Positions 10,192 through 42,572 of a stretch of 43,630 nucleotides of DNA are shown here, one piece after another (positions within the stretch are counted from its first letter, which is position 1; each line of letters starts with the position of its first letter). The stretch comes from a virus: positions 1 to 43,630 of the IMG/VR virus record IMGVR_UViG_3300025327_000059; one strand, given 5' to 3'. A model generated the notes under the pieces. That model saw only the letters and a list, made by a program, of their open reading frames with translations, had not been told where the DNA came from and searched no databases. Made by a program: the position numbers and the translations under genes.

Positions 10192-12192
10192 ATGATAAAG
10201 TACGAGCAACTCGCAGTTGAGTATTTAGAAAAACAGGAAAAGGTATACAAGCGATCAATCGGGCCGCTTCAACGCTTTTTGGTTCGAAATTTCGCTCAAC
10301 AGCTAGAAAAAACTCTCCCTGATGATCCTAACAAAGGGATTAGAAGTAAGCTAGGCCACATCAGAGGGAAGATTGCAAAAGTAGCATTTATTACAGAGGA
10401 CGTAGGACATCTCACAGGGGGCAGATATTACGCTTGGTTTATCGCTACTGCCCTTGTTGAATTAGGTTTTGACGTTACTGTTTACACTAACAAAGTTCCT
10501 GTTTTTCAAGATAACTTTAAACTTTATCAACAGCCAAAGATTGAAGTGGTTGTAAAAAACGCAAAAGAGCTTGAGACTTTTGATATTAAAGCCGATATTT
10601 ACATCGGTTCTCCAATTTCAGGAGATATTGCGGCGGCTCGATTGGCAGAAAAATACAACAAGCCTAGCTTTGCGATTATCTTTGACCCCTTTCCAATGAT
10701 GGAAAAGTATATCGGGCGAAGAACTTACGCTGGTTGGGGCGAGATTGTACCTCTTTTAAAAAAGACCGACATAAATATAATCACCTTGTGCAAATCAACC
10801 TCTGAGTATATTTACAATTGGCTCAATAAACGCAGAGATCAAGTGTTTGAAATTTATCCTTGTATAAATTCACGCGAAAAAGATCAAACAGAACAACAAC
10901 TACAGGAAGATTACGTTGTTTTTATCTCCCGTCTAGTCGGGCATAAAAGATTCCCACACGTCTTAGAGGCTTGCAGGGAGGCTGGTATTAAATTAAAGGT
11001 TATCGCAAGCATAGACGGATTAAAAACTGAGAAGATGATCGAGGAAGCAGGAATGACAGAGCAAGTTGAATTTTATCGAGGGATATCTGACAAAGAAAAA
11101 TTTGAGCTTATTGCAGGAAGTAAAGCAGTTATAAATGGGGCAATTTTTGAAGGCTTTGGGCTTTGGGCGGCAGAAGGCTTGGCTTGCGGAGTGCCTATTG
11201 TCTGTTACGAATATCCCACGTTTCGTGAGATAGAACAGATTGCACAAGCCAGTAATATGTATTTTGCAGAATGGGACAATCCAAAAGACCTTACCCTAAA
11301 ACTCAAGCAAGCGTTAAAAGAAAATAATAGAAACAATGGGACAAGAGCTTTTGATTTTGAGATACTTTCAGAGAGAGTAAAAAATGTTTTCTCTTTTGAA
11401 CCCCGCATTGGCATCATAACTATCGCCTTAAATGAAGAAAAATTTATCGGGGCTTCTTTGAGAGCAATTATCAAACACCCGAATGTTAAAAAGGTAGCGG
11501 TAGTCGAAGGAGCTGTTAATCTTTTTAATCATAGTGCAACGCCGCAAGGATTAAGTCTAGACAATACTGCTCAAGAAGTTTTAAAGGTAATTGAAGAAGA
11601 ACCCAATGGCAACAAAATTATTTACGATAGGTATGGGTGGGCTACTGATAAATCAGAACTTCGAAACCGAGCCTTAAATCTTATTAGTAAAAACCTCGAT
11701 TATATTCTAGTTGTTGATGCAGATGAGGTTTGGAAAAAAGAAGATTTAGACAAGCTCGTAGAGGGAATGAGAGAACACCCAGAGATTGGCGTTTTGCTTT
11801 TTAATCATCACCACTTTTGGAAGCGAAAAGATTTAGTAGCAATTGGCTCAAATTGGAACATTCACCTATTCCGTTGTTTTAAATTCCAAGATCCAACTCT
11901 CCATTGGGATAGACACGAAATGCCAGTCGTTGATTTTCAGGGTAGATACATAAATAAAACAGACGGCTTTTTAGTCTTAAGTGATGTTTATGTTTATCAT
12001 TACGGCTATCTTAAAAGCGACAAAGAAGTGCAAAATAAAATCGAGTACTATCGAAAAAGAGATCGGCATTTACAAGTTAAGGATACTTTTACTAATTGGA
12101 AAAAAGGCGATCCTACTTCAACAACTCATGGGGGAGGGGAGGCAATACCTTTTGAGGGAACTCACCCGTCAGAAATGGAAGGAATTATATGA
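10192..12192 (+). CDS. Two-domain glycosyltransferase (GT4-like plus GT2-like)
   Basis: A 666-residue protein. Residues about 60-400 form a GT-B enzyme: GHLTGGRYYAWFIATAL near the donor cleft, VVFISRLVGHKRFPHVLEA, and the GAIFEGFGLWAAEGLACGVP signature of GT4. Residues about 403-620 form a GT-A enzyme starting RIGIITIALNEEKFI, with the metal-binding DADEVW at about 508-513. Fusions like this add two sugars in turn. No membrane segment is seen, so it acts in the cytoplasm. It heads a glycan block with three methyltransferases. Targets could be host surface glycan, phage proteins or modified DNA; the sequence does not decide. Confidence 0.88.
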   Translation: MIKYEQLAVEYLEKQEKVYKRSIGPLQRFLVRNFAQQLEKTLPDDPNKGIRSKLGHIRGKIAKVAFITEDVGHLTGGRYYAWFIATALVELGFDVTVYTNKVPVFQDNFKLYQQPKIEVVVKNAKELETFDIKADIYIGSPISGDIAAARLAEKYNKPSFAIIFDPFPMMEKYIGRRTYAGWGEIVPLLKKTDINIITLCKSTSEYIYNWLNKRRDQVFEIYPCINSREKDQTEQQLQEDYVVFISRLVGHKRFPHVLEACREAGIKLKVIASIDGLKTEKMIEEAGMTEQVEFYRGISDKEKFELIAGSKAVINGAIFEGFGLWAAEGLACGVPIVCYEYPTFREIEQIAQASNMYFAEWDNPKDLTLKLKQALKENNRNNGTRAFDFEILSERVKNVFSFEPRIGIITIALNEEKFIGASLRAIIKHPNVKKVAVVEGAVNLFNHSATPQGLSLDNTAQEVLKVIEEEPNGNKIIYDRYGWATDKSELRNRALNLISKNLDYILVVDADEVWKKEDLDKLVEGMREHPEIGVLLFNHHHFWKRKDLVAIGSNWNIHLFRCFKFQDPTLHWDRHEMPVVDFQGRYINKTDGFLVLSDVYVYHYGYLKSDKEVQNKIEYYRKRDRHLQVKDTFTNWKKGDPTSTTHGGGEAIPFEGTHPSEMEGII

Positions 12193-14779: not shown

Positions 14780-16076
14780 GGAATTGCTAATTGGGGGCGG
14801 GGCAGGAGGCGGTAAAACGCTTTTTGGCTCTGCTTGGGTAACAATGATGGCAAATTCTTTGCCGCGTACCCGTTGGTTTATCGGCAGGAATGAGCTTAAA
14901 AGACTAAAACAATCCACACTTCTTACTTTCCTAGAACAATTAAGAGATTGGGATTTTGTGCAAAATAGGGATTTTCACTATAATCGGCAAGAAGGCGTTA
15001 TCACGTTTTTAAAAAGACAAAGCGAAATCTATCTCCTCGATGTTTCTTATATGCCGTCTGACCCAAATTACGATAGATTCGGTTCTACAGAATATACAGG
15101 CGGGTTTATTGACGAGGTAGAAGAGATAACAAGCAAGGCAAGGGAAGTCCTAAAAACCCGTATCAGATATAAATTAGAAGAACATGATCTTATCCCTAAA
15201 CTCCTGCTCAGTTGTATTCCGTCAAAGAATTGGGTCTATGTCGATTTTTACAAGCCTTGGAGAGATGGCAACCTCCCTAAAGATCGGGCGTTTGTTCGAA
15301 TCCTAGTTACTGATAATCCTCACGCTTCGCCGCAATACATTGCGTCTCTTAAAAAGATTAGGGATAGAGTCCTGCGGGAAAGATTGCTTGAAGGGAATTG
15401 GGAGTATGAAGACAGCGACCTCTCACTATTCCACTTCGACCAAATTAACGATTTATTTACCAATGTCCCAGTCGATTCAGACCAGTTTTATCTTACTTGC
15501 GATGTGGCAAGGTTTGGAGCCGACAAGACAGTAATTATGATCTGGAAAGGCTTCATGGTAATTAACATTAAGGTAATTTTAAAGAGCGATTTAACTGCAG
15601 TTGAGCGGGCAATTATGCAATTAGCCGAACAATACAAAATTAGAATCTCGCACGTGCTGGTTGATGAAGACGGAGTTGGGGGCGGGGTAGTAGACCATTT
15701 AAAGTGCAAGGGCTTTGTAGGTGGGGCTTCTGCGCTTGAGAGGCACGATCAAACTGTCAAAGAAACCGAGTTTAAAGTCAATTATCAGAATATGCGGGCT
15801 CAATGCTACTATACCTTGTCAGAATATGTTAATGATGCGAAGATTGGAATTAGAACAGAAGATTTAACTTATAGGGATTTAATCATTGAGGAGCTAGAGC
15901 AGATCAGGACGAAAGATAGCGAGAAGGAACAAAGGTTAAAGATAATCCCGAAAGAAGAAATTAAACTTAACCTTGGCAGATCGCCTGATTTTGCTGATGC
16001 TCTTATGATGCGAATGTATTTCGAGGTGCATAGCAAAGGTGCTACAATAAGATTTAGCGACATAGGCTTTATATGA
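14706..16076 (+). CDS. Terminase large subunit (ATPase and nuclease)
   Basis: A 456-residue packaging motor from ATG 14706 (a TTG at 14685 is a weaker choice). Walker A is GGGAGGGKT (30-38); Walker B with catalytic Glu is GGFIDEVEE (about 135-143). The RNase H-like nuclease has CDVARFGADKTV, LVDEDGVGGGVVD and SPDFADALMMRMYF, giving the acidic residues. ATP-driven DNA translocation and concatemer cutting. The start lies inside the small subunit gene. Its stop overlaps the portal gene by four bases. Confidence 0.95.
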   Translation: MPLIQFKPTLKQDQAWSLLQDKVTEELLIGGGAGGGKTLFGSAWVTMMANSLPRTRWFIGRNELKRLKQSTLLTFLEQLRDWDFVQNRDFHYNRQEGVITFLKRQSEIYLLDVSYMPSDPNYDRFGSTEYTGGFIDEVEEITSKAREVLKTRIRYKLEEHDLIPKLLLSCIPSKNWVYVDFYKPWRDGNLPKDRAFVRILVTDNPHASPQYIASLKKIRDRVLRERLLEGNWEYEDSDLSLFHFDQINDLFTNVPVDSDQFYLTCDVARFGADKTVIMIWKGFMVINIKVILKSDLTAVERAIMQLAEQYKIRISHVLVDEDGVGGGVVDHLKCKGFVGGASALERHDQTVKETEFKVNYQNMRAQCYYTLSEYVNDAKIGIRTEDLTYRDLIIEELEQIRTKDSEKEQRLKIIPKEEIKLNLGRSPDFADALMMRMYFEVHSKGATIRFSDIGFI

Positions 16077-18271
16077 ACATCTTTCAACGAGCTATAAAAA
16101 GCGTTTTAGGTGCACCATCTTCAATGTTTTCTTTGCCATGGGCAACTTCATCTTCCCAACTTAGTAGAACGCAATTGATTGGGGAATACAAAAGATATCT
16201 TTACACAATTGTTAGTGCAATCGCTGAGGATTTTGCAAAGATAGATTTTAGTGTCGAGAGGGCAACGCTTGATAGTAAAGTACCTATTAAAAACCACGCA
16301 TTCGCCACCTTAATTAAAAAGCCAAACGAAGATCAGTCGCAATTTCAGTTTCTTGAACTTCATCAGACCTATATGGAATTAGCAGGGGAGTCGTTTTGGT
16401 ACATGCCACCTACTGCTCTAACCCGCAAACCTACTGAACTTTATTTAATAAAACCCGACAGGATTGATGTTGTTGTTCCAGACTCAAAAGATAATCCTTT
16501 TGGAATAGTCGGCGGTTATGTTTATACAAATGGCAAGGGCGAGAAAATTCCTTTTGACAAAGACGAGATACTTCATTTCAAAATGCCTAATCCTGTTAAT
16601 CCCTACAGAGGAATGGGGACAGTAGAAGCCGCAACTATTTATATCCAGACTGAGGCGTATGCTTCTGAATGGACAAAACAATCGCTTTACAATTCAGGCA
16701 GACCTTCTGGAATCATAAATATAAAAGGAACGATGGATAAAGATGATTTCGAGCAGTTAAAAAAGAAATTCCGACAAGAATATCAAGGGTCTGCTAATGC
16801 TGGCAAAACAATGATGATTCCAAATGCGGAAGGTGTCGAGTTTACAAAAATTGGAATGGAGATGGGCGAAACTGCACTTACTGAATTAAAGAATATGACC
16901 CGCGATGATTTGATGATTATGTTTAGGGTCAGTAAGACTATTCTTGGAATTACAGACGACGTTAACCGAGCAAATGCAAAAGAAGCGAGAGCGGTTTGGT
17001 TGCAAAATGTCATTCAGCCAAAGATGGATCGTTTGATAGATCACCTAAACGCCTTTTTAATGGACAGATGGGGAGGCACAGACGTTTTATCTTATAAAGA
17101 CCCGTCTCCTGAAATTGTCGAAGACAAACTAGCTGAATGGGAAAAGGGTCACAACAAATGGTTGACTGCAAATGAGATTAGGGAAGAACGAAACAGCGTA
17201 CTTGGATCAAGCGAACTAGAGCCTAAAGAGGGCGGGGACGAACTCTATGCTCCTGCCCTTTTAGTTCCGCTTGCCGATCTAAATACACCAGACGAGCCAG
17301 AGCCAGACAAAGGACCGCCAAAAAAAGAACCGCCTCCTGAGCCTCCCCCTGAACCGCCAAAAGAAGGATTAAAGAAAAAAGCTCTCCCAAGAGAAGAAGC
17401 TGGAGAGATATTTAGGCAAGGGGTATTTAAGAAACAATCGCTCTGGGAAAAACGCTATCATAAATTACTAAGGAAGTTATTTGGCGAGCAAGAAAAAGAG
17501 ATACTAGGTCGAAAAGGAATTACTGCCAAGGCATACGAAGATTGGTTGTTTGATACAAAAAATGCACTTAAAAGGTTTAGTGCTATTCTCGTTCCTTTGT
17601 CTTACGAGATGATGAAAGATCAAGGTGAGAGTGCCTTAGACTTTGCGGGAGACAGCGAGACAGAGTTTGAAATAAACGAACGGGTTAAAAGATATGTCGA
17701 TGGTCGGGTCGCTCATTTTGCAGAAGGTACTAATGCTGAAACGATTAAGTTACTTCAAGGTTCTATAGGGGAGGGGATTCAAGCTGGCGAGAGCATTCAG
17801 AAATTAAAGAATCGAGTCAAAGAGATTTACGCAGAAGCAAAAGGGGCAAGGGCTGAGAGGATAGCAAGGACGGAAACTATAGCCGCAAGCAACGAAGCCG
17901 CTTTAGAGGCTTACAGACAAAGCCCAGAGGTAGCCGCTCAAGAATGGTTTGCGGAGCCAGACGCTTGCGAGTTTTGTGCGGAATTTGGCGGGAAGATAAT
18001 CGGGCTTGAAAGTTCTTTTGCTAATGTAGGTGAACCAGTCGAGGGAGCAGAAGGAGGAATCTTTGAGGTTGATTATGAAGATGTCGAACACCCTCCGCTT
18101 CACCCGAATTGTCGTTGTGTTATCTTGCCCGTTTCAAGTTATGACTTCACAAAAGCTAGGGCGTTAGTGCTTAAAGCGGAGTATGATAGAAGTAAGAACA
18201 AGAAGTCTAAAAAAGCAAAAAAACTCTTGTCTGACATAAACATATTAAAGAAGCATCAAGTAATCAGATGA
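16073..18271 (+). CDS. Portal protein fused to MuF-like minor head protein
   Basis: A 732-residue protein. Residues about 1-395 are an HK97-type portal (SSQLSRTQLIGEYKRYLYTIVSAIAEDFAKI, then PNPVNPYRGMG and ITDDVNRANAKEARAVWLQ). A Pro-Glu-rich linker follows (about 404-432). The C-terminal part (about 450-710) is a MuF/SPP1 gp7-type domain with ARTETIAASNEAALEAY, two CEFC cysteines, and HPPLHPNCRCVILPV. Portal and MuF are normally separate neighbouring genes; here they form one chain, so twelve MuF domains would go with each portal. The portal forms the DNA channel; MuF domains line the inner head and can be ejected. Confidence 0.92.
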   Translation: MNIFQRAIKSVLGAPSSMFSLPWATSSSQLSRTQLIGEYKRYLYTIVSAIAEDFAKIDFSVERATLDSKVPIKNHAFATLIKKPNEDQSQFQFLELHQTYMELAGESFWYMPPTALTRKPTELYLIKPDRIDVVVPDSKDNPFGIVGGYVYTNGKGEKIPFDKDEILHFKMPNPVNPYRGMGTVEAATIYIQTEAYASEWTKQSLYNSGRPSGIINIKGTMDKDDFEQLKKKFRQEYQGSANAGKTMMIPNAEGVEFTKIGMEMGETALTELKNMTRDDLMIMFRVSKTILGITDDVNRANAKEARAVWLQNVIQPKMDRLIDHLNAFLMDRWGGTDVLSYKDPSPEIVEDKLAEWEKGHNKWLTANEIREERNSVLGSSELEPKEGGDELYAPALLVPLADLNTPDEPEPDKGPPKKEPPPEPPPEPPKEGLKKKALPREEAGEIFRQGVFKKQSLWEKRYHKLLRKLFGEQEKEILGRKGITAKAYEDWLFDTKNALKRFSAILVPLSYEMMKDQGESALDFAGDSETEFEINERVKRYVDGRVAHFAEGTNAETIKLLQGSIGEGIQAGESIQKLKNRVKEIYAEAKGARAERIARTETIAASNEAALEAYRQSPEVAAQEWFAEPDACEFCAEFGGKIIGLESSFANVGEPVEGAEGGIFEVDYEDVEHPPLHPNCRCVILPVSSYDFTKARALVLKAEYDRSKNKKSKKAKKLLSDINILKKHQVIR

Positions 18272-18432
18272 AAGAAATACGTTGTCCAGATTGCGGGAGA
18301 CTTTTATTAAAAGCAAAAATGGTTGTCGGTCAGATAAAATGTAAATGCCGAGACAGTAAAGGCAATCAAAGAATTGTGCCGCTTAAAATTATTTCGCAGG
18401 AAGAAATTTTTAAAGCAAATAAAACAATATGA
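18268..18432 (+). CDS. Com-like zinc-ribbon protein
   Basis: A 54-residue protein: IRCPDCGRLLLKA followed by QIKCKCRDSKG gives a four-Cys zinc ribbon as in the Mu Com family. Com of phage Mu is an RNA-binding translational activator. Here it sits between portal-MuF and a structural gene, with four-base overlaps on both sides, so regulation of translation in the late operon is possible. Confidence 0.7.
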   Translation: MKEIRCPDCGRLLLKAKMVVGQIKCKCRDSKGNQRIVPLKIISQEEIFKANKTI

Positions 18433-18779
18433 GTGAAGTATTTGAAATAATCCGAAGGGACGATACAGATTTAGAATTGACGTTTACTGACGTAGATGGC
18501 AACGCCATTGATTTAACTGGTTGTACGGTCTTTTTTACGGCTAAGAGGCGGGTAAAAGATGTTGATGATGATGCTGTTATTAGCACAGAGCTAGATGAAT
18601 TTGAGGAACCTGAAACGGGAATTTGCGTTTTACCTTTTACAAATGAGGAAACAGATATACCTGCTGGCAATTACTATTACGATGTCCAATTATTAGACTC
18701 AGAAGGCAAGATTGCTTCTTCAGTTAAGGGCTTACTTAGAGTTTTAAGTGATGTTACAATAAGGACGGAGTTTAGTTAA
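18429..18779 (+). CDS. BppU N-terminal-like baseplate/structural domain
   Basis: A 116-residue beta-sandwich protein: FEIIRRDDTDLELTFTDVDGNAIDLTGCTVFFTAKRR, then GNYYYDVQLLDSEGK and a closing VLSDVTIR. This matches the N-terminal domain of BppU-type baseplate proteins and the many single-domain phage structural proteins like it. Probably part of the virion, but its place (head decoration or baseplate) is unknown. Confidence 0.7.
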   Translation: MSEVFEIIRRDDTDLELTFTDVDGNAIDLTGCTVFFTAKRRVKDVDDDAVISTELDEFEEPETGICVLPFTNEETDIPAGNYYYDVQLLDSEGKIASSVKGLLRVLSDVTIRTEFS

Positions 18780-18822: not shown

Positions 18823-19392
18823 ATGGCTACATACATCTGGACTTTACAAGGCGTGACGCCAACAGTAATAGACGCTACTGATATTATTCAGTTCGCTGGC
18901 GCAGGAGGTTTTGATACAGCTATCACAGTTGGCTCTTATAACGACACTACTCACGTTGAATCTTCAGTAGGAGCAGACGATTCCTCAGGCAATACACCAA
19001 ATAACACAAAATGGATTTCTGACGCTGGCGGCACAGGTGGCGACTCTCAGGCAGACTGGGGCGACGGGACAGAAGACATTGACGCTATCTTAGACGCAGA
19101 ATGCCCCTTAAAAATTAACTTTGCTCATTCTCCTGCTGTTGCGGTTTCAAGCCATATAATTTATGCTTACGACGGGACTACTCCTGCAACTGGACCGACA
19201 GAGGTTGATTTCCAGATTGCCGAACAGGCAGACACTAATTGGACAGAAGCAGAAGGAAGCGGAGCGGCTTTAGGAGTAACAGACAGCGGTTCAGCCACTT
19301 CTCACGACTTTTATTTCTTAATCAGCGCATCACCAACGACAGTTGGAGAGAAAACAGCATTTAAGATCAGAGACGAATTAACCTATACATAA
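18823..19392 (+). CDS. Probable virion protein, unknown
   Basis: A 189-residue acidic, Thr/Gly/Ala-rich beta protein. No family is recognised. The composition (SVGADDSSGNTPNN, GGTGGDSQADWGDG) is that of phage surface or decoration proteins. It is first behind its own promoter, which suggests a high copy number. Confidence 0.65.
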   Translation: MATYIWTLQGVTPTVIDATDIIQFAGAGGFDTAITVGSYNDTTHVESSVGADDSSGNTPNNTKWISDAGGTGGDSQADWGDGTEDIDAILDAECPLKINFAHSPAVAVSSHIIYAYDGTTPATGPTEVDFQIAEQADTNWTEAEGSGAALGVTDSGSATSHDFYFLISASPTTVGEKTAFKIRDELTYT

Positions 19393-19393
19393 C

Positions 19394-19732
19394 ATGGCTT
19401 TAAAAAGTAGAACAAAATATACAGCAGTTGAAATTCTAAAAGCCTCAGGAATTGCTAAGGCAGAAGAACAGATCGGCAAACTCCGCGTAAGAATCGCAGG
19501 GCTTGCAGGAATTAACACTCCCGACCACCTTATTAAAATTCCAGAAGGAGTTACGGAGATTGACGTTTTAGTAGGGGAAGAATTAGTTAAGGTTCCTGTT
19601 GAACTAGATGATGCAGAAGGTACAATCAGCGAGGGCGCGAAAGTAGCCCTTGATAAAAAAGGTGCTGAATCTGTAGCATTAAAAGAAGCTAAATCAAAGA
19701 AAAAGACAGAAGTCGCAGATACACCTCAGTAG
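19394..19732 (+). CDS. Small late protein, unknown
   Basis: A 112-residue protein with a mixed alpha/beta body and a Lys-rich tail (SVALKEAKSKKKTEVADTPQ). No family is recognised. It begins one base after the preceding stop without a ribosome site, so it is probably translated by coupling. Confidence 0.6.
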   Translation: MALKSRTKYTAVEILKASGIAKAEEQIGKLRVRIAGLAGINTPDHLIKIPEGVTEIDVLVGEELVKVPVELDDAEGTISEGAKVALDKKGAESVALKEAKSKKKTEVADTPQ

Positions 19733-19766: not shown

Positions 19767-20222
19767 ATGGAGACTCAAATACAAATACAAAAACACTCGG
19801 TAAATTGGCAAGCTTCACTTTCTAACGGAGAGACTTTTTATGAGGGCAAGCCACCTTTTGAAGAATTAGAGAACCAGCCCTCCCCTTGGCAAAGGCTTAT
19901 TGCCTACACAGCAGAAAAGAAACTAACTATAACCTCGCTTTCCCTTTATACGCCAGACGGGCGTACATTTAATCTTCCCTCGCTTGGCAAGAATCCTAAC
20001 TTTGCTCCTTTTAGAGATAGTGAAAAACCTATCGACTTTCACGTGGAGCGGAAAATGGGAAGCGAAATATCAGGGTTAAGAGAAGGCAATAAGTTAAGTA
20101 TTAAAAAAGTTGAAATGTCTGACTGGTTTACAGTCGCTATTGCTATCTATCCCACTTATAAACTCCAATTGTGGGTTGATAATCAAAATCCTAAAAACTG
20201 TTGGGTTTTGGTTATTAACTAA
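19767..20222 (+). CDS. Late protein, unknown
   Basis: A 151-residue protein with a good AGAGGAGG site upstream. Beta-rich, with LTITSLSLYTPDGRTFNLPS and YKLQLWVDNQNPKNCWVLVIN. Not recognised. It directly abuts the first repeat protein, so it may be part of the same surface structure. Confidence 0.6.
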   Translation: METQIQIQKHSVNWQASLSNGETFYEGKPPFEELENQPSPWQRLIAYTAEKKLTITSLSLYTPDGRTFNLPSLGKNPNFAPFRDSEKPIDFHVERKMGSEISGLREGNKLSIKKVEMSDWFTVAIAIYPTYKLQLWVDNQNPKNCWVLVIN

Positions 20223-21917
20223 ATGGCACGTATATTTTCATCGGGCTTTGAACTTCAATCGGTAACCGCTGGTGTTGAATGGGATTCAGGAACAGCAGTC
20301 GGGACAATTGACACTTCTGTTAAAAGAAGCGGCGCGGCTTCTTTGCTTTTTAATCTTACTAGCGCAGGGAATGGTCGTGTCGCACACAAAGTTGTTAGTG
20401 CTGTTACGGGAAACAAATTACTTGCAAGATTTGCCGTAAGAATTGCAACTGCTCCTGCCGCTAATACCGATATTGCCTCTTGGTTTGACAATGATACTGA
20501 TTGGTCTGCTTTCATCAGACTTAATACAGACAGGACTTTATCTTTAGTCAATTACAACGGAACTGTAATTGGTACTTCTTCGGCTTTAGAATTAGACGCT
20601 TGGTACATAGTTGAATTTGCTCACCAAAACGGAGCAACTGATCTTCTTGAAGCCAGACTTGCTCCCGATGACGGAACAACACCTTCAGTTTTTGCCACTA
20701 CTTCAACTAATCCGGGCATCAATGTTGATACTTTTATAATAGGTATTTCTTGGATTGCGGCAAATACCACAGGCAAACTTTACTTTGACGATGTAGCAGT
20801 CAACGACACTTCTGGAGCGGCTCAAACGAGTTATCCAAGCGTTGGTTCAATTGTCCATATGCAACCTGACTCGGCAGGGGATTTTAACGAAACGTCAGGT
20901 GACTATACGAGCGTTGATGAGGTAACTCCCGATAATGCGACTACAATTGCGGTTTTTGATGTTAATAACGATAGGCTTGATGTAAATTGTGAAACTTCTG
21001 CCAATGCAGGAATTGGGGCCGCCGATACTATTACTTTGGTTCAAGTTGGTTATCGGGCGGCAGGAGTAAATGCTAATGCTAGGTCGGGGAAGTTAAGAAT
21101 AAAATCTCAGGCAAGCGGAACGATGCTTGAGAGTGCGACTACAGCAGTTTCATCGTCAGCCTATCAAACCAACGCCCCCACGCCATTCGTTTATAAATTA
21201 ACCTCTTATACCGACCCACAAGCAGGTGGGGCTTGGACACCTACTCTTTTGAACTCAATGCAAATTGGTTTTCAGGCAATTGATGCCGCTCCTGACATAA
21301 ATCTTTCTACTTTATGGGCATTGGTTGAGTATGTACCAACACTATCAGTAGAGACTAATTCCGAAAGAAACGCTAAGATAACTGGAAAAACAACTGCAAA
21401 TTCAGAGCGTTCGTCAAAATTAACTGGAAAAGCTACCTCAAATGCTGAACGGGCGGCTAAACTCACAGGGGTAGCCACGACAAGCTCTGAAAGAGCAGGG
21501 AGGCTAACTGGTTCAGTTGGTGTTGAAGTTAATTCAGAGCGTTCCTCAAAAACTATTGGTACAGCAACCTCAAACGCAGAAAGAGCCGCAAGGCTTACAG
21601 GGGTCGAGGGTTCTAATTCCGAACGAAGCGCAAAAATTCTTGGAACAGCCACTACAGAATCTGAACGCCCTGCAAAAATTACTGGTTCGCAAACCACAAA
21701 CAGCGAAAGGGCAGGAAAATTAACTGGTAAGACGACTGCTAATTCTGAACGCCTAGCGAAGATTACAGGGGAACTAACCTCAAGTTCCGAGAGAAGCCCT
21801 AAGATTTATGGCGGTTACGAGTTTTCAGTTAACGACCATTTTGACGATACGGCTAACAAAGACGCAGGAGCAACAACAGCAAAATGGGAAGGAGACGGGG
21901 AGATAACCCTGCAATAA
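20223..21917 (+). CDS. Surface protein with eleven 14-residue SER-x-x-K-x-x-G repeats
   Basis: A 564-residue protein. Residues about 1-205 look like a lectin/LamG-type beta sandwich (FSSGFELQSVTAG, AWYIVEFAHQNGATDLLEARL, KLYFDDVAVNDTSGA). Residues about 205-375 form a second beta domain. Then eleven copies of a unit like NSERSAKITGKxTA follow, one spaced by GVEV. Likely a tail or head fibre that binds host surface. Codons for the same residues vary between copies. The next gene carries the same repeat. Confidence 0.7.
   Translation: MARIFSSGFELQSVTAGVEWDSGTAVGTIDTSVKRSGAASLLFNLTSAGNGRVAHKVVSAVTGNKLLARFAVRIATAPAANTDIASWFDNDTDWSAFIRLNTDRTLSLVNYNGTVIGTSSALELDAWYIVEFAHQNGATDLLEARLAPDDGTTPSVFATTSTNPGINVDTFIIGISWIAANTTGKLYFDDVAVNDTSGAAQTSYPSVGSIVHMQPDSAGDFNETSGDYTSVDEVTPDNATTIAVFDVNNDRLDVNCETSANAGIGAADTITLVQVGYRAAGVNANARSGKLRIKSQASGTMLESATTAVSSSAYQTNAPTPFVYKLTSYTDPQAGGAWTPTLLNSMQIGFQAIDAAPDINLSTLWALVEYVPTLSVETNSERNAKITGKTTANSERSSKLTGKATSNAERAAKLTGVATTSSERAGRLTGSVGVEVNSERSSKTIGTATSNAERAARLTGVEGSNSERSAKILGTATTESERPAKITGSQTTNSERAGKLTGKTTANSERLAKITGELTSSSERSPKIYGGYEFSVNDHFDDTANKDAGATTAKWEGDGEITLQ
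21351..21812 (+). repeat. Eleven tandem 42-base coding repeats
   Basis: Eleven in-frame units of 14 codons (consensus N/S-SER-x-A-K-I/L-T-G-x-x-T) separated in one place by a four-residue insertion. DNA identity between units is well below protein identity because synonymous codons are shuffled. Confidence 0.9.
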
Positions 21918-21918
21918 A

Positions 21919-24576
21919 ATGGCAGTAACAGATTGGAAGTTTCCTACAAGTACATTTTCTAATTCAGGCGTAGTTAACCCAGACAATGCTTGGGCTTCAG
22001 ACGATGCTCACGCAAACCTTGATACAGTAACCGATCAGGTGATTTATGGCAATTTCGGAGACTTTGGACTCCCTGCAGGGGCAGTTATTCAGGGAATTGA
22101 AGTTGAAGTTGAAGGAAAAATTACAGGAGAAGGAATCAACCACTCTGCTGATGTCTATGTGAGAATCGGCGGCGTTCTTTATTCAGGAACAAACGGAACA
22201 TGGGATCCAGATACAACTACAGACGATGTCCAAACTCTAGGAGGGGCAACTAACCTTTGGGGTGCTAGTAGTGCCGCTGTCTCTGATTTCGCAGACGGTA
22301 CTTTTAGGGTTCGTTTCACAATGACCGCCCTAAGCGTAACCTCGCTGGATTTAGACGCCTTTAAAGTAAGAGTTTACTATACCGAACCAGTAGATACTAA
22401 CTCCGAACGCCCTGCCAAAATAACTGGCAAGTCAACTTTAAACTCACAACGAAGCGCAAGAATGACAGGAGGATACTCGCAACAGGTTGCGGTTTCAATT
22501 GCTCTTGCAACTCCTGATGGTCCAATTACTGATGCTATTCTTTGGGCAAGAGAAGACAAACCCTCTGATACAGACATCACTTATTACTTATCAGCAGACG
22601 GAGGCAGTAATTGGGAAGAAGTTACGCTTGATACTCCTCATGCCTTTGTAGATCAAGGGCAAGACCTCCGTTGGAAAGCAGTTTTAGACCCTAGCTCAGA
22701 TAAATTAGAAAAGCCCACAGTTAAAGACATTATCATTTCCTATGCAGTTGGTGCTATTCCTGCTAATTCCGAAAGAGCGGCAAAAATAACTGGAACTCAG
22801 ACAACCTCAAGTGAAAGAGCCTCTAAAATCACAGGACAAGAAACTTCAAATGCCGAAAGGAGTGCAAGGTTAACTGGAACTGCCCAAGCTAACAGCGAGC
22901 GCAACGCCAAAATAACAGGTACAGATACAGCGAGCTCAGAGAGAGCCGCTAAAATTACTGGAAAACAAACAGCTTCTAGCGAGAGATCAGCAAAAATAAT
23001 TGGTACTGATACTTCCTCCTCAGAACGAAGTGCCAAAATAACAGGCAAGTTAACAACTAACAGCGAACGGAATGCAAAAATAACAGGGAAAGAAACCGCC
23101 TCAAGTGAGAGATTAGCAAAATTAACAGGACAAGCTCAGGCAAATTCAGAGAGGAGTGCGAGGCTAACAGGCACAGCAACCGCAAATTCTGAAAGACAAG
23201 CCAAAATTACAGGGCAGGAAAGCACGTCTAACGAGCGAAATGCTAAGTTAACGGGTAAAGACTCAGCTAATTCTGAAAGGTCTGCAACTCTTACAGGGCA
23301 AATCATAGATGAGCGTTCCGCGAAATTAACAGGGCAAGCTCTCACATCTTCTGAAAGGGACGCAAAACTAACAGGTAAAAATACGGCTTCAAGCGAGCGA
23401 GATACTAAAGTTACAGGAACTTTAGGGGCTAATTCGGAAAGAGCCGCGAAAATAGTAGGGCAAGCCCTCACAAACAATGAACGATCTGCAAAGATAGTCG
23501 GCACAGACACTTCTAGCTCTGAACGTTCGGCTAAAATTACAGGTCAACAAACAGCAGACAGCGAAAGAGCGGGTAAGATTACTGGAAAGGCAACCGCACA
23601 AGACGAAAGAAATGCAAAAGTTGTCGGTAAATTAACAACTGATTCCGAGAGGTCTGCGAAATTAACTGGAAAAGATCAAGCCTCTGATGAAAGAGCCGCA
23701 ACACTTGAGGGCTTTATACCTACCTTATCTGAAAGGTCAGCAAAAATAGATGGAATAACAACTGCTTCATCTGAGAGAGCCGCGACCTTAAACGGGACAA
23801 CCCATGTAATTTCCCAGCGTAGTGCGAAAATAGTCGGGCAGGAATTAACAGATGACGAACGGGCCGCTAAATTAACTGGTACAGCTTTAACAAGCAACGA
23901 GAGAAACGTAAAAATAGTAGGAAAGCAAACTGATTCCTCTGAAAGAAACGCAAAACTCACAGGAAAAGACTCTGCAACTTCCGAGAGGAATGCCAAAATT
24001 ACAGGGCAAGACTCCGCAACCTCTGAGAGAAACGCAAAAGTAACAGGGCAACAATTAACCGCAGACGAACGAAGTGCAAAGATAATTGGGAAACAATCTG
24101 CCAGCAACGAAAGAGATGCGAAATTAACTGGAACTTTAACAGATCAAGCCGAAAGGTCAGCAAGGATTGTTGGTAAAGATACTGCCGCAAGTGAGCGGGA
24201 CGTTAAGATCACAGGGTCAGCGGAAGCAAACAGCGAAAGAGAAGCAACTCTGCAAGGGCAAGCCTTAACATCTAGCGAGAGAAGCGCAAAGGTTACTGGA
24301 TATTTAACAACTCAAAGCGAGAGAGACGTAAAGATAACAGGTAAATTTTCTGCAAATAGCGAAAGAGGTGGAAGGCTTAAAGGTATCAGAACCAAAAGAA
24401 AAAGTATTTATGTTTCTCCGCGAAACTTAAAGGGGTCGGTATCTGTTGCCGCAATAAAGACAAATGTTTCAATGAGGTTTATTAGGAAATTTGAAAATGT
24501 AACAATTAGAAATTTGTCAGCCCGCTATATTGCTTTTAGGAATAAAGGAATCACAGTTGTTGCAAATAAGTTGTAG
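21919..24576 (+). CDS. Large surface protein with about forty 14-residue repeats
   Basis: An 885-residue protein. The N-terminal domain (about 1-155) is beta-rich (TDWKFPTSTFSNSGVVNP, SADVYVRIGGVLY). Two repeat units follow at about 157-180, then a second domain (190-275) with TYYLSADGGSNWEEVTL, then 39 consecutive units (about 282-820) of SSERSAKITGKxTA type. The tail is basic (IRTKRKSIYVSPRNLKG). The repeat array could form an extended stalk. Probably a receptor-binding or fibre protein, but no known fibre family is recognised. It starts one base after the previous stop without a ribosome site. Confidence 0.7.
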   Translation: MAVTDWKFPTSTFSNSGVVNPDNAWASDDAHANLDTVTDQVIYGNFGDFGLPAGAVIQGIEVEVEGKITGEGINHSADVYVRIGGVLYSGTNGTWDPDTTTDDVQTLGGATNLWGASSAAVSDFADGTFRVRFTMTALSVTSLDLDAFKVRVYYTEPVDTNSERPAKITGKSTLNSQRSARMTGGYSQQVAVSIALATPDGPITDAILWAREDKPSDTDITYYLSADGGSNWEEVTLDTPHAFVDQGQDLRWKAVLDPSSDKLEKPTVKDIIISYAVGAIPANSERAAKITGTQTTSSERASKITGQETSNAERSARLTGTAQANSERNAKITGTDTASSERAAKITGKQTASSERSAKIIGTDTSSSERSAKITGKLTTNSERNAKITGKETASSERLAKLTGQAQANSERSARLTGTATANSERQAKITGQESTSNERNAKLTGKDSANSERSATLTGQIIDERSAKLTGQALTSSERDAKLTGKNTASSERDTKVTGTLGANSERAAKIVGQALTNNERSAKIVGTDTSSSERSAKITGQQTADSERAGKITGKATAQDERNAKVVGKLTTDSERSAKLTGKDQASDERAATLEGFIPTLSERSAKIDGITTASSERAATLNGTTHVISQRSAKIVGQELTDDERAAKLTGTALTSNERNVKIVGKQTDSSERNAKLTGKDSATSERNAKITGQDSATSERNAKVTGQQLTADERSAKIIGKQSASNERDAKLTGTLTDQAERSARIVGKDTAASERDVKITGSAEANSEREATLQGQALTSSERSAKVTGYLTTQSERDVKITGKFSANSERGGRLKGIRTKRKSIYVSPRNLKGSVSVAAIKTNVSMRFIRKFENVTIRNLSARYIAFRNKGITVVANKL
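22762..24382 (+). repeat. Thirty-nine tandem 42-base coding repeats
   Basis: Thirty-nine in-frame units, nearly all exactly 14 codons, each with (S/D/A)ER, a Lys or Arg at unit position 8 and Gly at position 11. One unit is shortened (GQIIDERSAKL). Serine is written with TCN and AGY codons and arginine with CGN and AGR in irregular alternation. Confidence 0.92.
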
Positions 24577-24676: not shown

Positions 24677-26476
24677 ATGGACAAAAAACTAATTAGAAAA
24701 AATTTCATAGTACAGATTAAAGACCTTGGTGAAGGAATTATTGAGGCGGTTGTCGCTAGCGATTCAGTAGACCGCCATGGCGAAGTAATTGATATTAAGG
24801 GTTTAGATATCAAGAGATTTAAAGAGAATCCTGTTATTCCTTGGGCGCATAACTACGACGAACCTCCTATCGCAAAAGCAATTTCAATCAGGAAAACACA
24901 AGACGGCAAACTTATTTCCAAGATGGAGTTTGCTATTAACATTTCTAAATTCGCAAGACAGATTTACGATCTTTACAAAGGAAAGTTTTTAAGGGCTTTT
25001 AGCATTGGTTTTATTCCTCTTGAGATGGACGGGAACATTTATACAAAATCTGAACTGATCGAGTATTCAGCAGTTCCAATCCCTGCTAATCCAGATGCTC
25101 TAGCAATGGCAATGAAAATGGGAATTGATTTAGAAAAAGTCAAGGAAGGGGGTGACAATAAAATGGATGACGACAAAGACCAAAAAGACCAAGACGGCGA
25201 AGACGAAGACGACGCTGATGACGACGCTGATAAAGGCGAAGACAAAAGCGAAGGAGACGGAAACGCCGCAGGTGACCCAGACGCGGGCGAAGGTGATGGT
25301 GACGACGATGCTGGCGATGACGCTGATGACAAAAAAGGCGATGAAGCTAAAGATCAGGGTCAAGTGCTTGCTTCTATTAAAGCTGTTAAAAAACAGATGT
25401 CAGAAATGGGTAAAACCTTGAAAGCGATGGATAAACCTATCAAAAAGTTTATCTCTCAAAGTAAAGGTGGAGTCATAATGGCAGGAGGAGAGCCAATTTC
25501 TAAAGAAGAGAAATTGAAGCTATGGCTTAAAGCTATGGTTACAAAAGACTTCTCCGAATATAAGGAAGTGATCGCTAAGGACGCAATGGATACGAGTACA
25601 GGAGTAGGTGAAGCTACTCTACCTCCAACTGAATTTATCGCAGAGATAAGAAGGTTAGAGGAACAGTACGGAGTTGCTCGTAGATTCGCTGATGTCCGAT
25701 CAACAGATCGTACTTCCATCACAGGCATAAAAGGCAACGCTGATGTTTCGATTTACGAGACAGCAGAAGCAGGAGTAAAGACAGGGACGAAAGTCACTTA
25801 TTTGCCTTTTGAGCTCACTTTCAAAAAGTTTGCCGCAATCGCTCCTGTAACCGATGAGTTGCTAGAGGATTCTGCAGTAGCCATATGGGCTGATCTTACT
25901 TCAAGATTTGCCAGAGCTTACGCCAAAAAGGAAGACGAACTCGTCTTTACTGTAGCCGCAACGGGTATCATAAACCTTGGCGGGGTTGCACCAATCGCCA
26001 TAATTGGTGATTCTATCGAAGATATCACATTCGATGAGGTAAACAGAGCAATCTATTCCGTTCCAACTCCTTCGATGCAGAACGGACGTTTTTACTTCCA
26101 CAGGACAATTCTCGGCGTATTGCAGAGAATTAAGGACACTCAGGAGAGGTACATACTTACTCCAGGGCCAGATGGTCCAGTAAGCGGTACACTTTGGGGC
26201 GTTCCTTACGAACTAACGGAGGTACTAACAAGCCTCGACAATGATGCCGCTGGTACACCTTTCATAGTGTTTGGTGATCTTAAGAATACAATCTTGGGAG
26301 ACCGAACAAGGATGACAGCAAAGATATTTGATACTGGTTCAGTTGTTGATGCTGACGAGGAAGATTTAAACCTTCTAACTCAGGACGCTCAAGCTATGCG
26401 TGTAGTTAAGCGTTTCAACGCATTAACAGTTTTTGAAGAAGCTTACGCTGTTATATCGACAGGAGGTGCCAGTTAA
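24677..26476 (+). CDS. Prohead protease - acidic linker - major capsid protein fusion
   Basis: A 599-residue protein. Residues 1-150 are an HK97/U35 prohead protease: SVDRHGEVID, the catalytic His58 in WAHNYDEPP and Ser109 in AFSIGFIPLE. Residues about 158-228 are almost only Asp, Glu, Lys, Gly and Ala. A helical delta-like region follows (229-265). Residues about 280-599 are an HK97-fold capsid protein (LPPTEFIAEIRRLEEQYGVARRFADV, FKKFAAIAPVTDELLEDSA). The usual three functions (protease, scaffold, coat) are in one chain. Two in-frame internal ATGs (25163, 25478) have SD-like sequences upstream and could give scaffold-coat and coat alone. Confidence 0.93.
   Translation: MDKKLIRKNFIVQIKDLGEGIIEAVVASDSVDRHGEVIDIKGLDIKRFKENPVIPWAHNYDEPPIAKAISIRKTQDGKLISKMEFAINISKFARQIYDLYKGKFLRAFSIGFIPLEMDGNIYTKSELIEYSAVPIPANPDALAMAMKMGIDLEKVKEGGDNKMDDDKDQKDQDGEDEDDADDDADKGEDKSEGDGNAAGDPDAGEGDGDDDAGDDADDKKGDEAKDQGQVLASIKAVKKQMSEMGKTLKAMDKPIKKFISQSKGGVIMAGGEPISKEEKLKLWLKAMVTKDFSEYKEVIAKDAMDTSTGVGEATLPPTEFIAEIRRLEEQYGVARRFADVRSTDRTSITGIKGNADVSIYETAEAGVKTGTKVTYLPFELTFKKFAAIAPVTDELLEDSAVAIWADLTSRFARAYAKKEDELVFTVAATGIINLGGVAPIAIIGDSIEDITFDEVNRAIYSVPTPSMQNGRFYFHRTILGVLQRIKDTQERYILTPGPDGPVSGTLWGVPYELTEVLTSLDNDAAGTPFIVFGDLKNTILGDRTRMTAKIFDTGSVVDADEEDLNLLTQDAQAMRVVKRFNALTVFEEAYAVISTGGAS
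25147..25165 (+). promoter_or_regulatory. Possible internal start 1 (acidic linker plus coat)
   Basis: GGAAGGGGGTG is followed by in-frame ATG 25163 (MDDDKD...), at codon 163 of the fusion. This would give a protein of about 437 residues lacking the protease. Confidence 0.4.
25464..25480 (+). promoter_or_regulatory. Possible internal start 2 (coat protein alone)
   Basis: AAAGGTGGAG is followed five bases later by in-frame ATG 25478 (MAGGEPIS...), at codon 268. The product would be about 332 residues, the normal size of an HK97-type coat protein after loss of its delta domain. Confidence 0.45.
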
Positions 26477-38565: not shown

Positions 38566-38593
38566 GCCCCGACTAACACTCGGGGCTTTTATT
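38566..38593 (+). terminator. Terminator between converging genes
   Basis: GCCCCGA (38566-38572) pairs with TCGGGGC (38580-38586), then TTTTATTT. A good intrinsic terminator on the plus strand; on the minus strand the following sequence is not U-rich. Confidence 0.85.
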
Positions 38594-39197
38594 TGCCCGC
38601 AAGATAATCTCCCGCAATAAGTTCAAGGGCTCGCCCCTCGCTCATTGTTTCGTCTCCTTCTTGGGCTTTGCTGATTGCTTGTTTAATTATTTCGTATTGC
38701 TCGGCTGTTACTTTTATTACAGTCATTCCATCTTCAAGGTTGCCCGCATTGTCTTTTACGTCTTCCCAATTAAAATTAGCCATCTCAACGTAATTTTTAA
38801 TCATCTCATCTTTGTAGGGCAGGGCTAGGTCTTTGAAGTCATTGACCATTTTTTTAATCAAATGGGCTAGTTTTATTTCGTTAAAAGGAACCTGTTGCTC
38901 GAAGTCAATTGTAGTTTCCATTGCTTCCTGATCAGAAATTTCACCTAGGTTATAAACGATGATATTTTTCCAGTCTAATTCTTTACAGGCAGTCCAGCGT
39001 TGTTCCCCGTCCACGATTTCATACCTGTCGCCTTTTGTGCGCACTACTACAGGCAGTTTAAGACCTTTTTTGGTTATGATACCCTTGATCGTTTCAAACT
39101 GCTCTGTGTTTTTATCTTTTGGGTTCCAGCTATTAGGGTCTAAAAGATTGATGTCAACTATTGATATAAATTTAGGATCGAATTTTAATTGTTCCAT
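38589..39197 (-). CDS. ParB-like nuclease-domain protein
   Basis: A 202-residue protein. Residues about 15-100 are a ParB/Srx-like domain with NSWNPKDKN, LKLPVVVRTKGDRYEIVDGEQRW (VDGEQRW at 62-68) and AMETTIDFEQQVPF. The C-terminal part is helical. Such domains bind or cut DNA, or hydrolyse nucleotides. Last gene of the deazaguanine operon, four bases after the zinc-ribbon gene. ParB-like proteins are frequent neighbours of phage DNA-modification genes; the role may be in choosing or handling modified DNA, which is inference. Confidence 0.8.
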   Translation of the reverse strand: MEQLKFDPKFISIVDINLLDPNSWNPKDKNTEQFETIKGIITKKGLKLPVVVRTKGDRYEIVDGEQRWTACKELDWKNIIVYNLGEISDQEAMETTIDFEQQVPFNEIKLAHLIKKMVNDFKDLALPYKDEMIKNYVEMANFNWEDVKDNAGNLEDGMTVIKVTAEQYEIIKQAISKAQEGDETMSEGRALELIAGDYLAGK

Positions 39198-39200
39198 AGG

Positions 39201-39356
39201 TTAGTTTTTGCCATGTTTGTGATTCATATTTTTGCCGCAAAGACATTTTTTTAACAATTTCAATTTACCACACTTTTTGCAAAGCCTTGCTGTTACAATC
39301 CAATCAATGCGCCTACTGAGTTTCCATTTATGACCAAAAATCCAAAAGCAGATCAT
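39201..39356 (-). CDS. Short zinc-ribbon protein beside dpdA
   Basis: A 51-residue protein from ATG 39356, overlapping the dpdA stop (ATGA). It has CKKCGK and CLCGKN knuckles, then HKH, and a GHKWKLSRR opening, as in small prophage zinc ribbons. Its tight coupling to dpdA hints at a functional link, but this is inference. Confidence 0.65.
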   Translation of the reverse strand: MICFWIFGHKWKLSRRIDWIVTARLCKKCGKLKLLKKCLCGKNMNHKHGKN

Positions 39357-40240
39357 GTTTTGTAAACAACTCCTCTAGCTTCCCACACTTGAGTAAAATA
39401 TCTTTCCATCTCTTTGTAGGCTTCAACTGCTATTTCCATTCGCTTAACCCTGCCTACTGCTAAATTTTTGTCATGGACTTGAGCTAAATCTTTTACTTTT
39501 TTACTGAGCGAATACAAATTGTTATTCTCGTTGTTCAGTTTTATTGTACCAAGTCGCTTGCCGTCAAATGCGAGAGTAGTTGCGTATTGCATTCCTGCTT
39601 TCCAACTTGTCGCGTCCGTTGAGTAAAAAGGATACTTCATTAACGCTTCACGTTTGCAAAAAGCGAACCCATGAACTTTTATGCCCTGCTCGTAGGCAGG
39701 TTTAATAAGGCTGTTGTAAGGCAAGCGGGGTCGCTTAGGCCTGTCGCCCTCAAGAGCAACATATTTACTTTGGGAGTCTTTTAACATTTCCAAATAATCC
39801 TCAAAGGTTTGGACTTCTGGGTGATAAACAGTAATGCACTTTTGATATAAGCCAGCCTGTTTTAATTCTTCCCGCCACTCCATCACTTTATCTTGCCCTG
39901 CAATTTCGCCTATATCAAGTTCAACAAAATAATCAAATAGGTTATTCCATTTTTTGAGCCAAGCCAAAAAATTCTCCCAGTAAACTTGCGGGGCTTCTTC
40001 TGTAATTGTCTTTTTGACGTGAACAGATACAGACAAGCCTTGTCCTTGAAGCTCGGAAAAGAAGCTGTGAGCGCCGCTGTCAACAATGATCTCTTTTATA
40101 TGGGGCCTGCCAGCCATTAAAGTATAGGGCTCTCTTTTTTTGCGCAGATAGTAATAGGAGTAAAAAGCCCGCTCGATCACATCTGTTTTAACTACCTCAA
40201 GTGTTTCGCTTGATTCCATTCCTGCTAGGAAGATTTTCAT
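39353..40240 (-). CDS. dpdA: DpdA: DNA guanine transglycosylase
   Basis: A 295-residue TIM-barrel enzyme related to tRNA-guanine transglycosylase. VDSGAHSFF holds the first catalytic Asp54; FVELDIG holds Asp109; HGFAFCKREALMKYPFYSTD is followed by ATSW, the phage DpdA signature around Asp209. DpdA swaps guanine in DNA for a 7-deazaguanine base. It is shorter than bacterial TGT and lacks its CxCxxC zinc site. Four-base overlaps on both sides within the deazaguanine operon. The subfamily (DpdA2, DpdA3 or other) cannot be settled by eye. Confidence 0.88.
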   Translation of the reverse strand: MKIFLAGMESSETLEVVKTDVIERAFYSYYYLRKKREPYTLMAGRPHIKEIIVDSGAHSFFSELQGQGLSVSVHVKKTITEEAPQVYWENFLAWLKKWNNLFDYFVELDIGEIAGQDKVMEWREELKQAGLYQKCITVYHPEVQTFEDYLEMLKDSQSKYVALEGDRPKRPRLPYNSLIKPAYEQGIKVHGFAFCKREALMKYPFYSTDATSWKAGMQYATTLAFDGKRLGTIKLNNENNNLYSLSKKVKDLAQVHDKNLAVGRVKRMEIAVEAYKEMERYFTQVWEARGVVYKT

Positions 40241-41223
40241 AGAAACCTCTCAAGTATATCAATCGCCTTGCTAAGGTTGTCGTTGTGTTTAACTGTTAAA
40301 GCGTGGACGTAATTTGTATTATTCCGCATAAAGTATCTCACTTTTTCTACTGCATCTGGGAAAACATTGTAGCGGTACATACTAGGAAAGAACTCTCGGT
40401 AAGATAAATCATTCGGCACTACTGGGATACAACCTAGCGTGACTGCTTCAATGACTCCAAAACCAAAATTCTCTTGAAGCGCCGCGGAAAATACAACTTT
40501 ACTTCTGGCAAGCAATTTATAGTAATCTTTTTTAGATAACTTTTGTTCCATTGTTTTAATATACTGGTACTCAGGCAATTTTTCTTTTAACTTGTCAAAG
40601 AGCCAAGGTTGTTTTTCATCATCAAGTCTGCCTGTAAAAACGACAATATCTTCTTTCCTTTTTTTGCCTTTAAATGCGAAACTCCGCACATAATTGTAAT
40701 CAAAAGGCATTCCAGTAACGTGAATCCTGTTAAAGTATTTAGGCACTTTTTTCTCTATTAGTTCAGACTTTGCAAAGGTACTACCAACAAAAACAAAATC
40801 TAACATCTTAAACCAACCAATCTCAATATCCCTAACCCACCCTTCTAATTCCCGCACAAAATCTGTTTCTGTGAAGCTCCCAGCGTGGCAATAACCGCCT
40901 ACCTTTACGCTTAAATTATTAAAGAGCGCCATGTATTTTATTGCTTCAATACCTGGGAACCAAATATCAGAGAAGAAAAAAACGTCTCCGTTGTGAACTA
41001 CCTTTTGTTGAAAAAGCTGTGCAATAGTAGCCAATTGGCTAAATTTAAAGTGAGAAGTGCTATTAGCGTCCAGAAACGCCCCTGTTTCTATCTCTTGGGT
41101 TAAAGGGACTCCTTTGATTCTTTCGTGAGGCAAAGACCTTTTTTTGAGTTCTGTATCAATTAAGCGGTCCATATCTACTGTGTACCGCTTATCTAAATGC
41201 TCAAGGGGAACGTAAAAAATCAT
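40237..41223 (-). CDS. GT-B glycosyltransferase within the deazaguanine operon
   Basis: A 328-residue protein. The N-terminal domain (1-165) holds VFFFSDIWFPGIEAIKYMALF and VGGYCHAGSFTETDF; the C-terminal domain opens with IVVFTGRLDDEKQPWLFDKL and carries the GT4-type donor site ALQENFGFGVIEAVTLGCIPVVP (about 248-270). No signal peptide or membrane segment, so it is cytoplasmic. It overlaps dpdA and the QueD-like gene by four bases each, so it is made with the base-modification enzymes. It could glycosylate the modified base or DNA; it could also act on glycans. Substrate not known. Confidence 0.82.
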   Translation of the reverse strand: MIFYVPLEHLDKRYTVDMDRLIDTELKKRSLPHERIKGVPLTQEIETGAFLDANSTSHFKFSQLATIAQLFQQKVVHNGDVFFFSDIWFPGIEAIKYMALFNNLSVKVGGYCHAGSFTETDFVRELEGWVRDIEIGWFKMLDFVFVGSTFAKSELIEKKVPKYFNRIHVTGMPFDYNYVRSFAFKGKKRKEDIVVFTGRLDDEKQPWLFDKLKEKLPEYQYIKTMEQKLSKKDYYKLLARSKVVFSAALQENFGFGVIEAVTLGCIPVVPNDLSYREFFPSMYRYNVFPDAVEKVRYFMRNNTNYVHALTVKHNDNLSKAIDILERFL

Positions 41224-41546
41224 TCAATCATTGCTCCGTTCTCGTTATCTTCAAAGACTGATACTTTTATTTTGCGGTCATAAGTAATCTCTAGGTTTGC
41301 TTTTAAGCATTCTGCCATCATTTCGCAACTCATTTCGCTAGTCAAATCAATTACGTTATTCCAAAGTTCACCACATTCGTCTCTAAAAAGGTGAAATTCA
41401 ATGTCCCTATTATCGTGAAATTGCTCAATCCAAACCTCCACAAAAAAAACATGCCTGTGCAGAGAAGCTAGATATTTTACTCCTTCTGGCGCATTAACGA
41501 ATTTGTGCCAACCTATTTTTTGAAACCTGACTATTGACCAGATCAT
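41220..41546 (-). CDS. QueD-like T-fold protein without the catalytic cysteine (DpdL candidate)
   Basis: A 108-residue protein of the 6-pyruvoyl-tetrahydropterin synthase fold. The zinc histidines are kept (GWHKF His14; LHRHVF His30 and His32), and SCEMMAECLK near the end corresponds to the NPTAE part of QueD. The Cys four residues before LHGH in QueD is Leu26 here, so QueD chemistry is not expected. A decarboxylase turning carboxydeazaguanine into deazaguanine, named DpdL, has been proposed in phages; I recall it as a QueD relative, and this gene is a candidate. It lies between folE and the glycosyltransferase. Confidence 0.7.
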   Translation of the reverse strand: MIWSIVRFQKIGWHKFVNAPEGVKYLASLHRHVFFVEVWIEQFHDNRDIEFHLFRDECGELWNNVIDLTSEMSCEMMAECLKANLEITYDRKIKVSVFEDNENGAMIE

Positions 41547-42415: not shown

Positions 42416-42572
42416 CGGATTGGTAGGTATTTTTTTCGTCAGTTAAGACAAAATACTGGATTTGATCATTGACTGTCAGCAATTTAACTTTAGCAACTCT
42501 TATGCCTAAATTGTCATAATTTAATAAAGCATCATTTAATTGTCCGAGGGTAACAAATTTATGTAAGGTCAT
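42390..42572 (-). CDS. Small operon protein, unknown
   Basis: A 60-residue protein: LHKFVTLGQLNDALLNYDNLGIRVAKVKLLTVNDQIQYFVLTDE, a helix followed by beta strands. Not recognised. It overlaps queE by four bases and folE by 26, so it is part of the operon. No metal or catalytic motif visible. Confidence 0.6.
   Translation of the reverse strand: MTLHKFVTLGQLNDALLNYDNLGIRVAKVKLLTVNDQIQYFVLTDEKNTYQSDEAKANVE

Follow-up and report, generated by a model that had tools for sequence, protein, structure and literature searches.

The window analysed here, a 43,630-base stretch of viral DNA taken as a whole, carries a siphovirus-like structural module with small and large terminase, portal, protease-major capsid protein (MCP) fusion, head-tail connector, tape measure, Dit and Tal-like genes. 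Two genes bearing copies of the same short protein repeat are encoded between portal and MCP, that is, within the structural module. The features of this region are as follows.

16073-18271 (+): portal with a fused Mu-F-like domain (context gene)
18823-19392 (+): c189, 189 aa, with 49-76% identity between phages and a C-terminal part that is beta-rich in the model
19394-19732 (+): c112, 112 aa, found only in a subset of cassettes
19767-20222 (+): c151, 151 aa, located one to three genes before the repeat gene in each contig that is long enough
20223-21917 (+): second repeat gene, 564 aa, N-terminal part resembling Streptomyces phage Hiyaa gp13 and phrog_14065
21357-21824 (+): eleven units in the second repeat gene, the last one degenerate
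21919-24576 (+): repeat (REP) gene, 885 aa, encoding in order an N-terminal beta-type domain, two units, an inserted domain, the 39-unit array and a basic C-terminal tail
22399-22470 (+): two further units of this repeat, ahead of the array in the same ORF
22471-22764 (+): inserted domain (DGGSNWEEV type), also C-terminal in predicted phage structural proteins of L004-L006
22765-24396 (+): array of 39 head-to-tail units, 38 of 14 aa and one of 12 aa, consensus NSERSAKITGKxTA
24677-26476 (+): prohead protease and major capsid protein fused in one ORF (PF05065; phrog_10)

The count of 39 units in this ORF agrees with the initial annotation, except that a single unit (23269-23304) has 12 residues, all others being spaced at 14. 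The array was also present where it had been placed (22762-24382), with ends that were 3-14 bases off, while the two units nearer the N-terminus and the eleven in the gene immediately upstream had been missed. In the REP protein the two-unit motif was counted 37 times, compared with 0 times in 2000 shuffles, and a degenerate DNA pattern of the repeat matches 15 times in the window, with 0 matches expected. Since Tandem Repeats Finder recovers just 2.8 copies at the DNA level, the array is a protein repeat and not a DNA repeat. The consensus from ten repeat genes, taken from the window and eight contigs with a motif that demanded G10, is N-S-E-R-S-A-K-[ILV]-T-G-[KQ]-[DA]-[TS]-[AT] (R4 93%, A6 85%, K7 91%). 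Within the window array Gly10 is invariant, and position 8 alone is regularly hydrophobic.

The N-terminal 380 aa of Streptomyces phage Hiyaa gp13 are 37% identical to the sister repeat protein, encoded by the second repeat gene, whose N-terminal half matches Streptomyces phage proteins annotated as minor tail protein. Hiyaa gp13, which carries this annotation, is encoded between MCP and head-tail adaptor. The likeness is confined to the N-terminal part, as the C-terminal half of Hiyaa gp13 consists of another repetitive sequence without the 14-residue units.

Several other features of the window were recorded. The protease-MCP fusion ORF includes a long acidic low-complexity linker. Directly before the cassette described below, positions 18429-18779 encode a BppU_N-like protein (under the Pfam cut-off; phrog_1084), which was not found together with the cassette in any of the seven further contigs that were compared. 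A 666-aa protein encoded at 10192-12192 has glycosyltransferase PHROG matches. On the minus strand, positions 38589-43444 hold ParB-like, queuine tRNA-ribosyltransferase-like, glycosyltransferase-like, GTP cyclohydrolase and QueE-like genes, which resemble a set for 7-deazaguanine (preQ0-type) DNA modification; comparable genes occur in a phage contig binned with Patescibacteria (G025). The window contains no tRNA genes, so its tRNAs give no clue to the host.

A gene cassette in phages with unrelated heads

The repeat gene is the last gene of a cassette in which c189, c112 (in a subset), c151 and an optional large appendage gene precede it. This cassette is present in about 30 IMG/VR contigs and in two phage contigs from Patescibacteria bins. 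Scanning with c189 recovered 30 viral loci and scanning with c151 recovered 23, some of them on shared contigs. A match to the repeat profile was found one to three genes downstream of c151 in 19 of the 19 contigs holding c151 plus at least three downstream genes, most of which had been found through the c189 and c151 scans and not through the repeat; in one of these (L060) the repeat gene is just 128 aa long. The c151 gene of L093/L094 (IMGVR 3300027743_000358) is split over both ends of a 51.6-kb contig, which is probably a complete circle for that reason.

The strict two-unit pattern matched nine further viral contigs. We did not see the array in unrelated intracellular proteins, an occurrence that according to the initial annotation would speak against its proposal: among 11.3 million genome contigs, the pattern matched a single one, which is a phage contig assigned to a Candidatus Kerfeldbacteria bin. 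In a search of the Patescibacteria phylum, two of 380 genomes held the repeat, and c151 was found in exactly these two; c189 was found in one of them and in one further genome. In the second Patescibacteria-binned genome, the contig concerned (G025 C12) is a 40-kb phage contig that keeps the cassette order. The link to Patescibacteria hosts is tentative, because these are binned phage contigs. In a tblastn search, none of 50,697 cultured-phage records held a relative of the 885-aa repeat protein, of c189 or of c151; Pfam gave no match for the repeat, c189, c112 or c151 of the window, and PDB profile searches with c151 and c189 gave nothing under E 0.3.

Compared with G005, G008 and G009, c189 of the window is 66-76% and c151 51-63% identical, whereas the terminase, portal and MCP of the window have no blastp match there at 1e-3. 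The MCPs neighbouring the cassette belong to seven PHROG families (10, 283, 267, 9953, 1357, 371 and 1005). The cassette usually follows the MCP, in most contigs also preceding the head-tail connectors; it precedes the MCP in the window and in L062, and in L092 and L066 it lies in the tail module, behind the tape-measure gene and, in L092, behind Dit as well. Given the seven MCP families and the varying position, the cassette is, as judged from sequence, an autonomous unit passed among phages with unrelated heads.

The repeat proteins of related contigs contain domains of types found in virion proteins. That of L050 has a MAM domain (1.9e-12), that of L014 a Laminin_G_3 domain (LamG, lectin-like; 8e-9), and an internal domain of L067, outside the repeats, matches tail protein phrog_5795 (E 2.7e-18) and tail fibre phrog_8469 (E 3e-6). 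The REP protein of the window matches PHROG tail families weakly, for example phrog_24159 at E 0.0013.

Further observations concern the sequences around and behind the repeats. His-rich HxH stretches are seen in the L067 sequence. In the podovirus-like L067, L069, L074 and L076, the C-terminal ~125 aa behind the 14-residue array carry another short repeat, for example YNTKYTDRGTTY. Five to six genes separate MCP from cassette in L050, L054 and L057, and those of L050 include glycosyltransferase and methyltransferase domains; in G025 the gene preceding c189 looks glycosyltransferase-like by sequence. The G025 repeat protein (L032), from a Patescibacteria-associated phage, and the archaeal tailed Methanosarcina virus MetMV (L098:6001-7401) have in common an N-terminal DW..(K/Q)G.PF module with different repeats behind it. 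MetMV was rejected as a relative of the repeat, the match being limited to 44 aa at the N-terminus of the G025 protein. A glycosyltransferase of E. coli plasmid pKTa005_1 (L099), which has many ERDGEITGLNQAIA units, was likewise rejected as unrelated, its 14-residue motif being a different one and probably a two-heptad coiled coil.

Codon saturation and array length

Serine and arginine codons vary among the units, as had been pointed out initially: serine at position 2 is encoded by TCN 15 times and AGY 12 times, and arginine at position 4 by AGR 26 times and CGN 12 times. The mean pairwise pS among units is 0.785, compared with 0.808+-0.015 in random back-translation with the codon usage of the phage, and DNA identity between units is 0.531, compared with 0.518 for random back-translation. 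Synonymous sites are thus saturated and the codons look like random draws. No extra similarity of adjacent over distant units was found in the window array. Saturation, the lack of such an excess, and colinear units in relatives that are 76% identical support the view that these are old repeats kept by selection on the protein.

The accompanying suggestion that DNA divergence lowers recombination between copies did not find support. In favour of codon scrambling being itself selected because it blocks recombination between units, lag-1 synonymous codon identity is slightly low (0.314, compared with 0.371 in synonymous shuffles, P 0.024), with a similar trend in the L064 array. This is, however, the sole deviating lag of four; exact direct repeats reach at most 17 nt, which equals the shuffle mean (17.0), and repeated k-mer counts likewise match the shuffles. 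Most of the 23 arrays tested for codon identity of neighbours are near the null, and those of L074, L052, L014 and L072 retain some residual similarity, L074 deviating in the opposite direction (z +4.1). Scrambled codons are the expected product of saturation, so active avoidance of recombination is not supported, and we regard selection on the scrambling itself as very improbable.

Some arrays bear residue signatures of their own, with position 7 being E in L058 and L032 and V in L052 and L070, and position 4 being I in L061. Codon homogenisation was not found in the signature-bearing arrays of L058, L061, L032 and L070. Either old amplification of one founder unit or the stacking of like residues would explain the signatures. 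In terms of length, the repeat proteins of L067 and L069, the one close pair (76% identical), align without gain or loss of any unit; L074 and L076 (56% identical) have first arrays of equal span, and L067 and L074 differ by ~7 units. Array length seems to change rarely and in blocks. Selection on the protein would hold this length while the DNA copies diverged to synonymous saturation.

A predicted virion fibre and its alternatives

In order to model the repeat, we ran AlphaFold2 on ten units as a monomer, with an alignment of 34 rows that has no gaps. The model has one 7-residue strand per unit (positions 6-12) at low confidence (pLDDT 63, pTM 0.50). Foldseek searches with the repeat and c189 models, the latter reliable from residue 60 onward only, gave no match with E below 0.001 (best for the repeat, E 2.3). 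VIA realignment of Foldseek's top chains returned beta-solenoids (LpxA, ice-binding protein, Awp1) at Z 7-9.5, a range the tool calls common. The solenoid or stalk put forward in the initial annotation is supported in part, by the strand per unit and the beta-solenoid look-alikes, and is weakened by the pLDDT of 63 and by look-alikes that lack significance. Our best guess from the model is a stacked beta rod, in which 39 units would span ~19 nm at 0.48 nm per coil. Sequence searches of Pfam, NCBIfam and PDB found no relative of the repeat, toxin A repeats (E 0.4) being rejected as chance. The statement that the unit belongs to no known fibre family holds for these three libraries, with PHROGs adding weak matches for the window protein only.

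We consider it likely that the repeat protein is a portable virion fibre with a beta-structured rod as its shaft. This reading rests on the linkage of c151 and the repeat, exchange among phages, virion-type domains, position in the structural module, the Hiyaa-type N-terminus of the sister protein, the strand predicted in each unit and the beta-solenoid look-alikes; presence in the virion, rod shape, a receptor role and the roles of c189 and c151 are what we infer from it. Each 14-residue unit would contribute a short beta strand, a turn at Gly10 and a loop, with units stacked as a rod that forms the shaft of the appendage. Domains of lectin-like, MAM or tail-collar-like type, placed within the rod or at its ends, would carry out the binding, and c189 and c151 would probably serve docking or assembly of the fibre. 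The fibre gene would then be the last of a transferable cassette moving between phages with unrelated heads. The Ser/Thr-rich shaft may, speculatively, be glycosylated. A broader proposal, which we hold tentatively, is that c189, c112, c151 and the repeat shaft make up a self-contained transferable cassette that functions on virions with capsids of seven families, in siphovirus- and podovirus-like phages, both Patescibacteria-associated and other uncultured ones; its shaft would be a new beta-rod fold, with signatures (K7 to E/V, R4 to I) set by stacking and not by DNA homogenisation.

The array could instead be a low-complexity disordered linker with no fold and no binding role. Its composition (13% hydrophobic residues, ILVMFWY; 26% Ser+Thr) and the low pLDDT are consistent with this, but the strict 14-residue register, the retention of Gly10 and Arg4 through saturation, the alternation of small and hydrophobic residues at positions 6 and 8, the fact that 34 segments from many phages align without gaps, and the preservation of all units in register in the 76%-identical relatives make a linker improbable. 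Assuming a fibre, its place on the virion has to be considered. It may be attached to the head, c189 docking to the capsid and the repeat gene making the filament, as proposed for 7-7-1 or phi29. Most contigs have the cassette after the MCP and before the head-tail connectors; capsid fibres exist in phage 7-7-1, whose authors suggest anchoring by Ig-type domains of gp122 (PMC12796354), and several known decoration proteins bind carbohydrates (PMC7602432). We regard this arrangement as a serious possibility that falls short of probable, as the L092 and L066 cassettes follow the tape-measure gene and a single docking protein would have to suit seven sequence-unrelated MCP families. Attachment to the neck or tail, as a main receptor-binding or side fibre, agrees with the tail-module position in those two contigs, with the tail-fibre PHROG domains of the L067-type protein and with the weak tail-fibre PHROG matches of the window protein. 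It seems rather unlikely in view of the head region holding most cassettes, and of the window having Dit/Tal-type tail-tip genes of its own with more structural genes behind them. Since the cassette is part of the tail module in L092 and L066, gene position leaves docking to head or tail unfixed, and we slightly favour the head.

Comparison with known systems

The predicted fibre resembles phage head fibres in being encoded mostly beside capsid genes. The gp8.5 protein of phi29, the capsid fibres of 7-7-1 and Hoc of T4 are filaments or accessory proteins of the virion surface that are believed to help in attachment (PMC7602432, PMC12796354). No sequence relation to these was found, and the phi29 fibre is alpha-helical, whereas here there are predicted beta repeats and conserved cassette partners. 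The adenovirus-type triple beta-spiral forms a trimeric fibre shaft from ~15-residue beta repeats with a turn residue, its register having several hydrophobic positions around a Gly/Pro turn. The repeat of the window differs from it in having 14 residues, invariant Arg4 and Gly10, and only position 8 regularly hydrophobic; among solved structures in the PDB there was no sequence match to it.

Phage fibres with repeat shafts are an already known kind. As far as the searched libraries and open papers go, this repeat, its cassette and its exchange among unrelated heads are undescribed: open papers, with most subscription journals outside the scope of the search, held nothing on the repeat or on Patescibacteria phage fibres with it. 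If the fibre reading is true, it defines a portable attachment module common to unrelated uncultured phages, names four families of unknown genes and assigns them likely roles, adds a new beta-repeat shaft, and offers a handle on cell contact by Patescibacteria-associated phages, few of which are characterised.

Among bacterial stalks, Periscope proteins are similar in that a tandem-repeat stalk would project binding domains. Their repeats, near-identical at the DNA level, change quickly in number (PMC8201768). In the window array, by contrast, DNA identity between units is 0.53 with synonymous sites saturated, and unit number is constant in L067 and L069, the one close pair. A long array that has kept its register through synonymous saturation is the opposite of the stalk proteins of variable length known so far.
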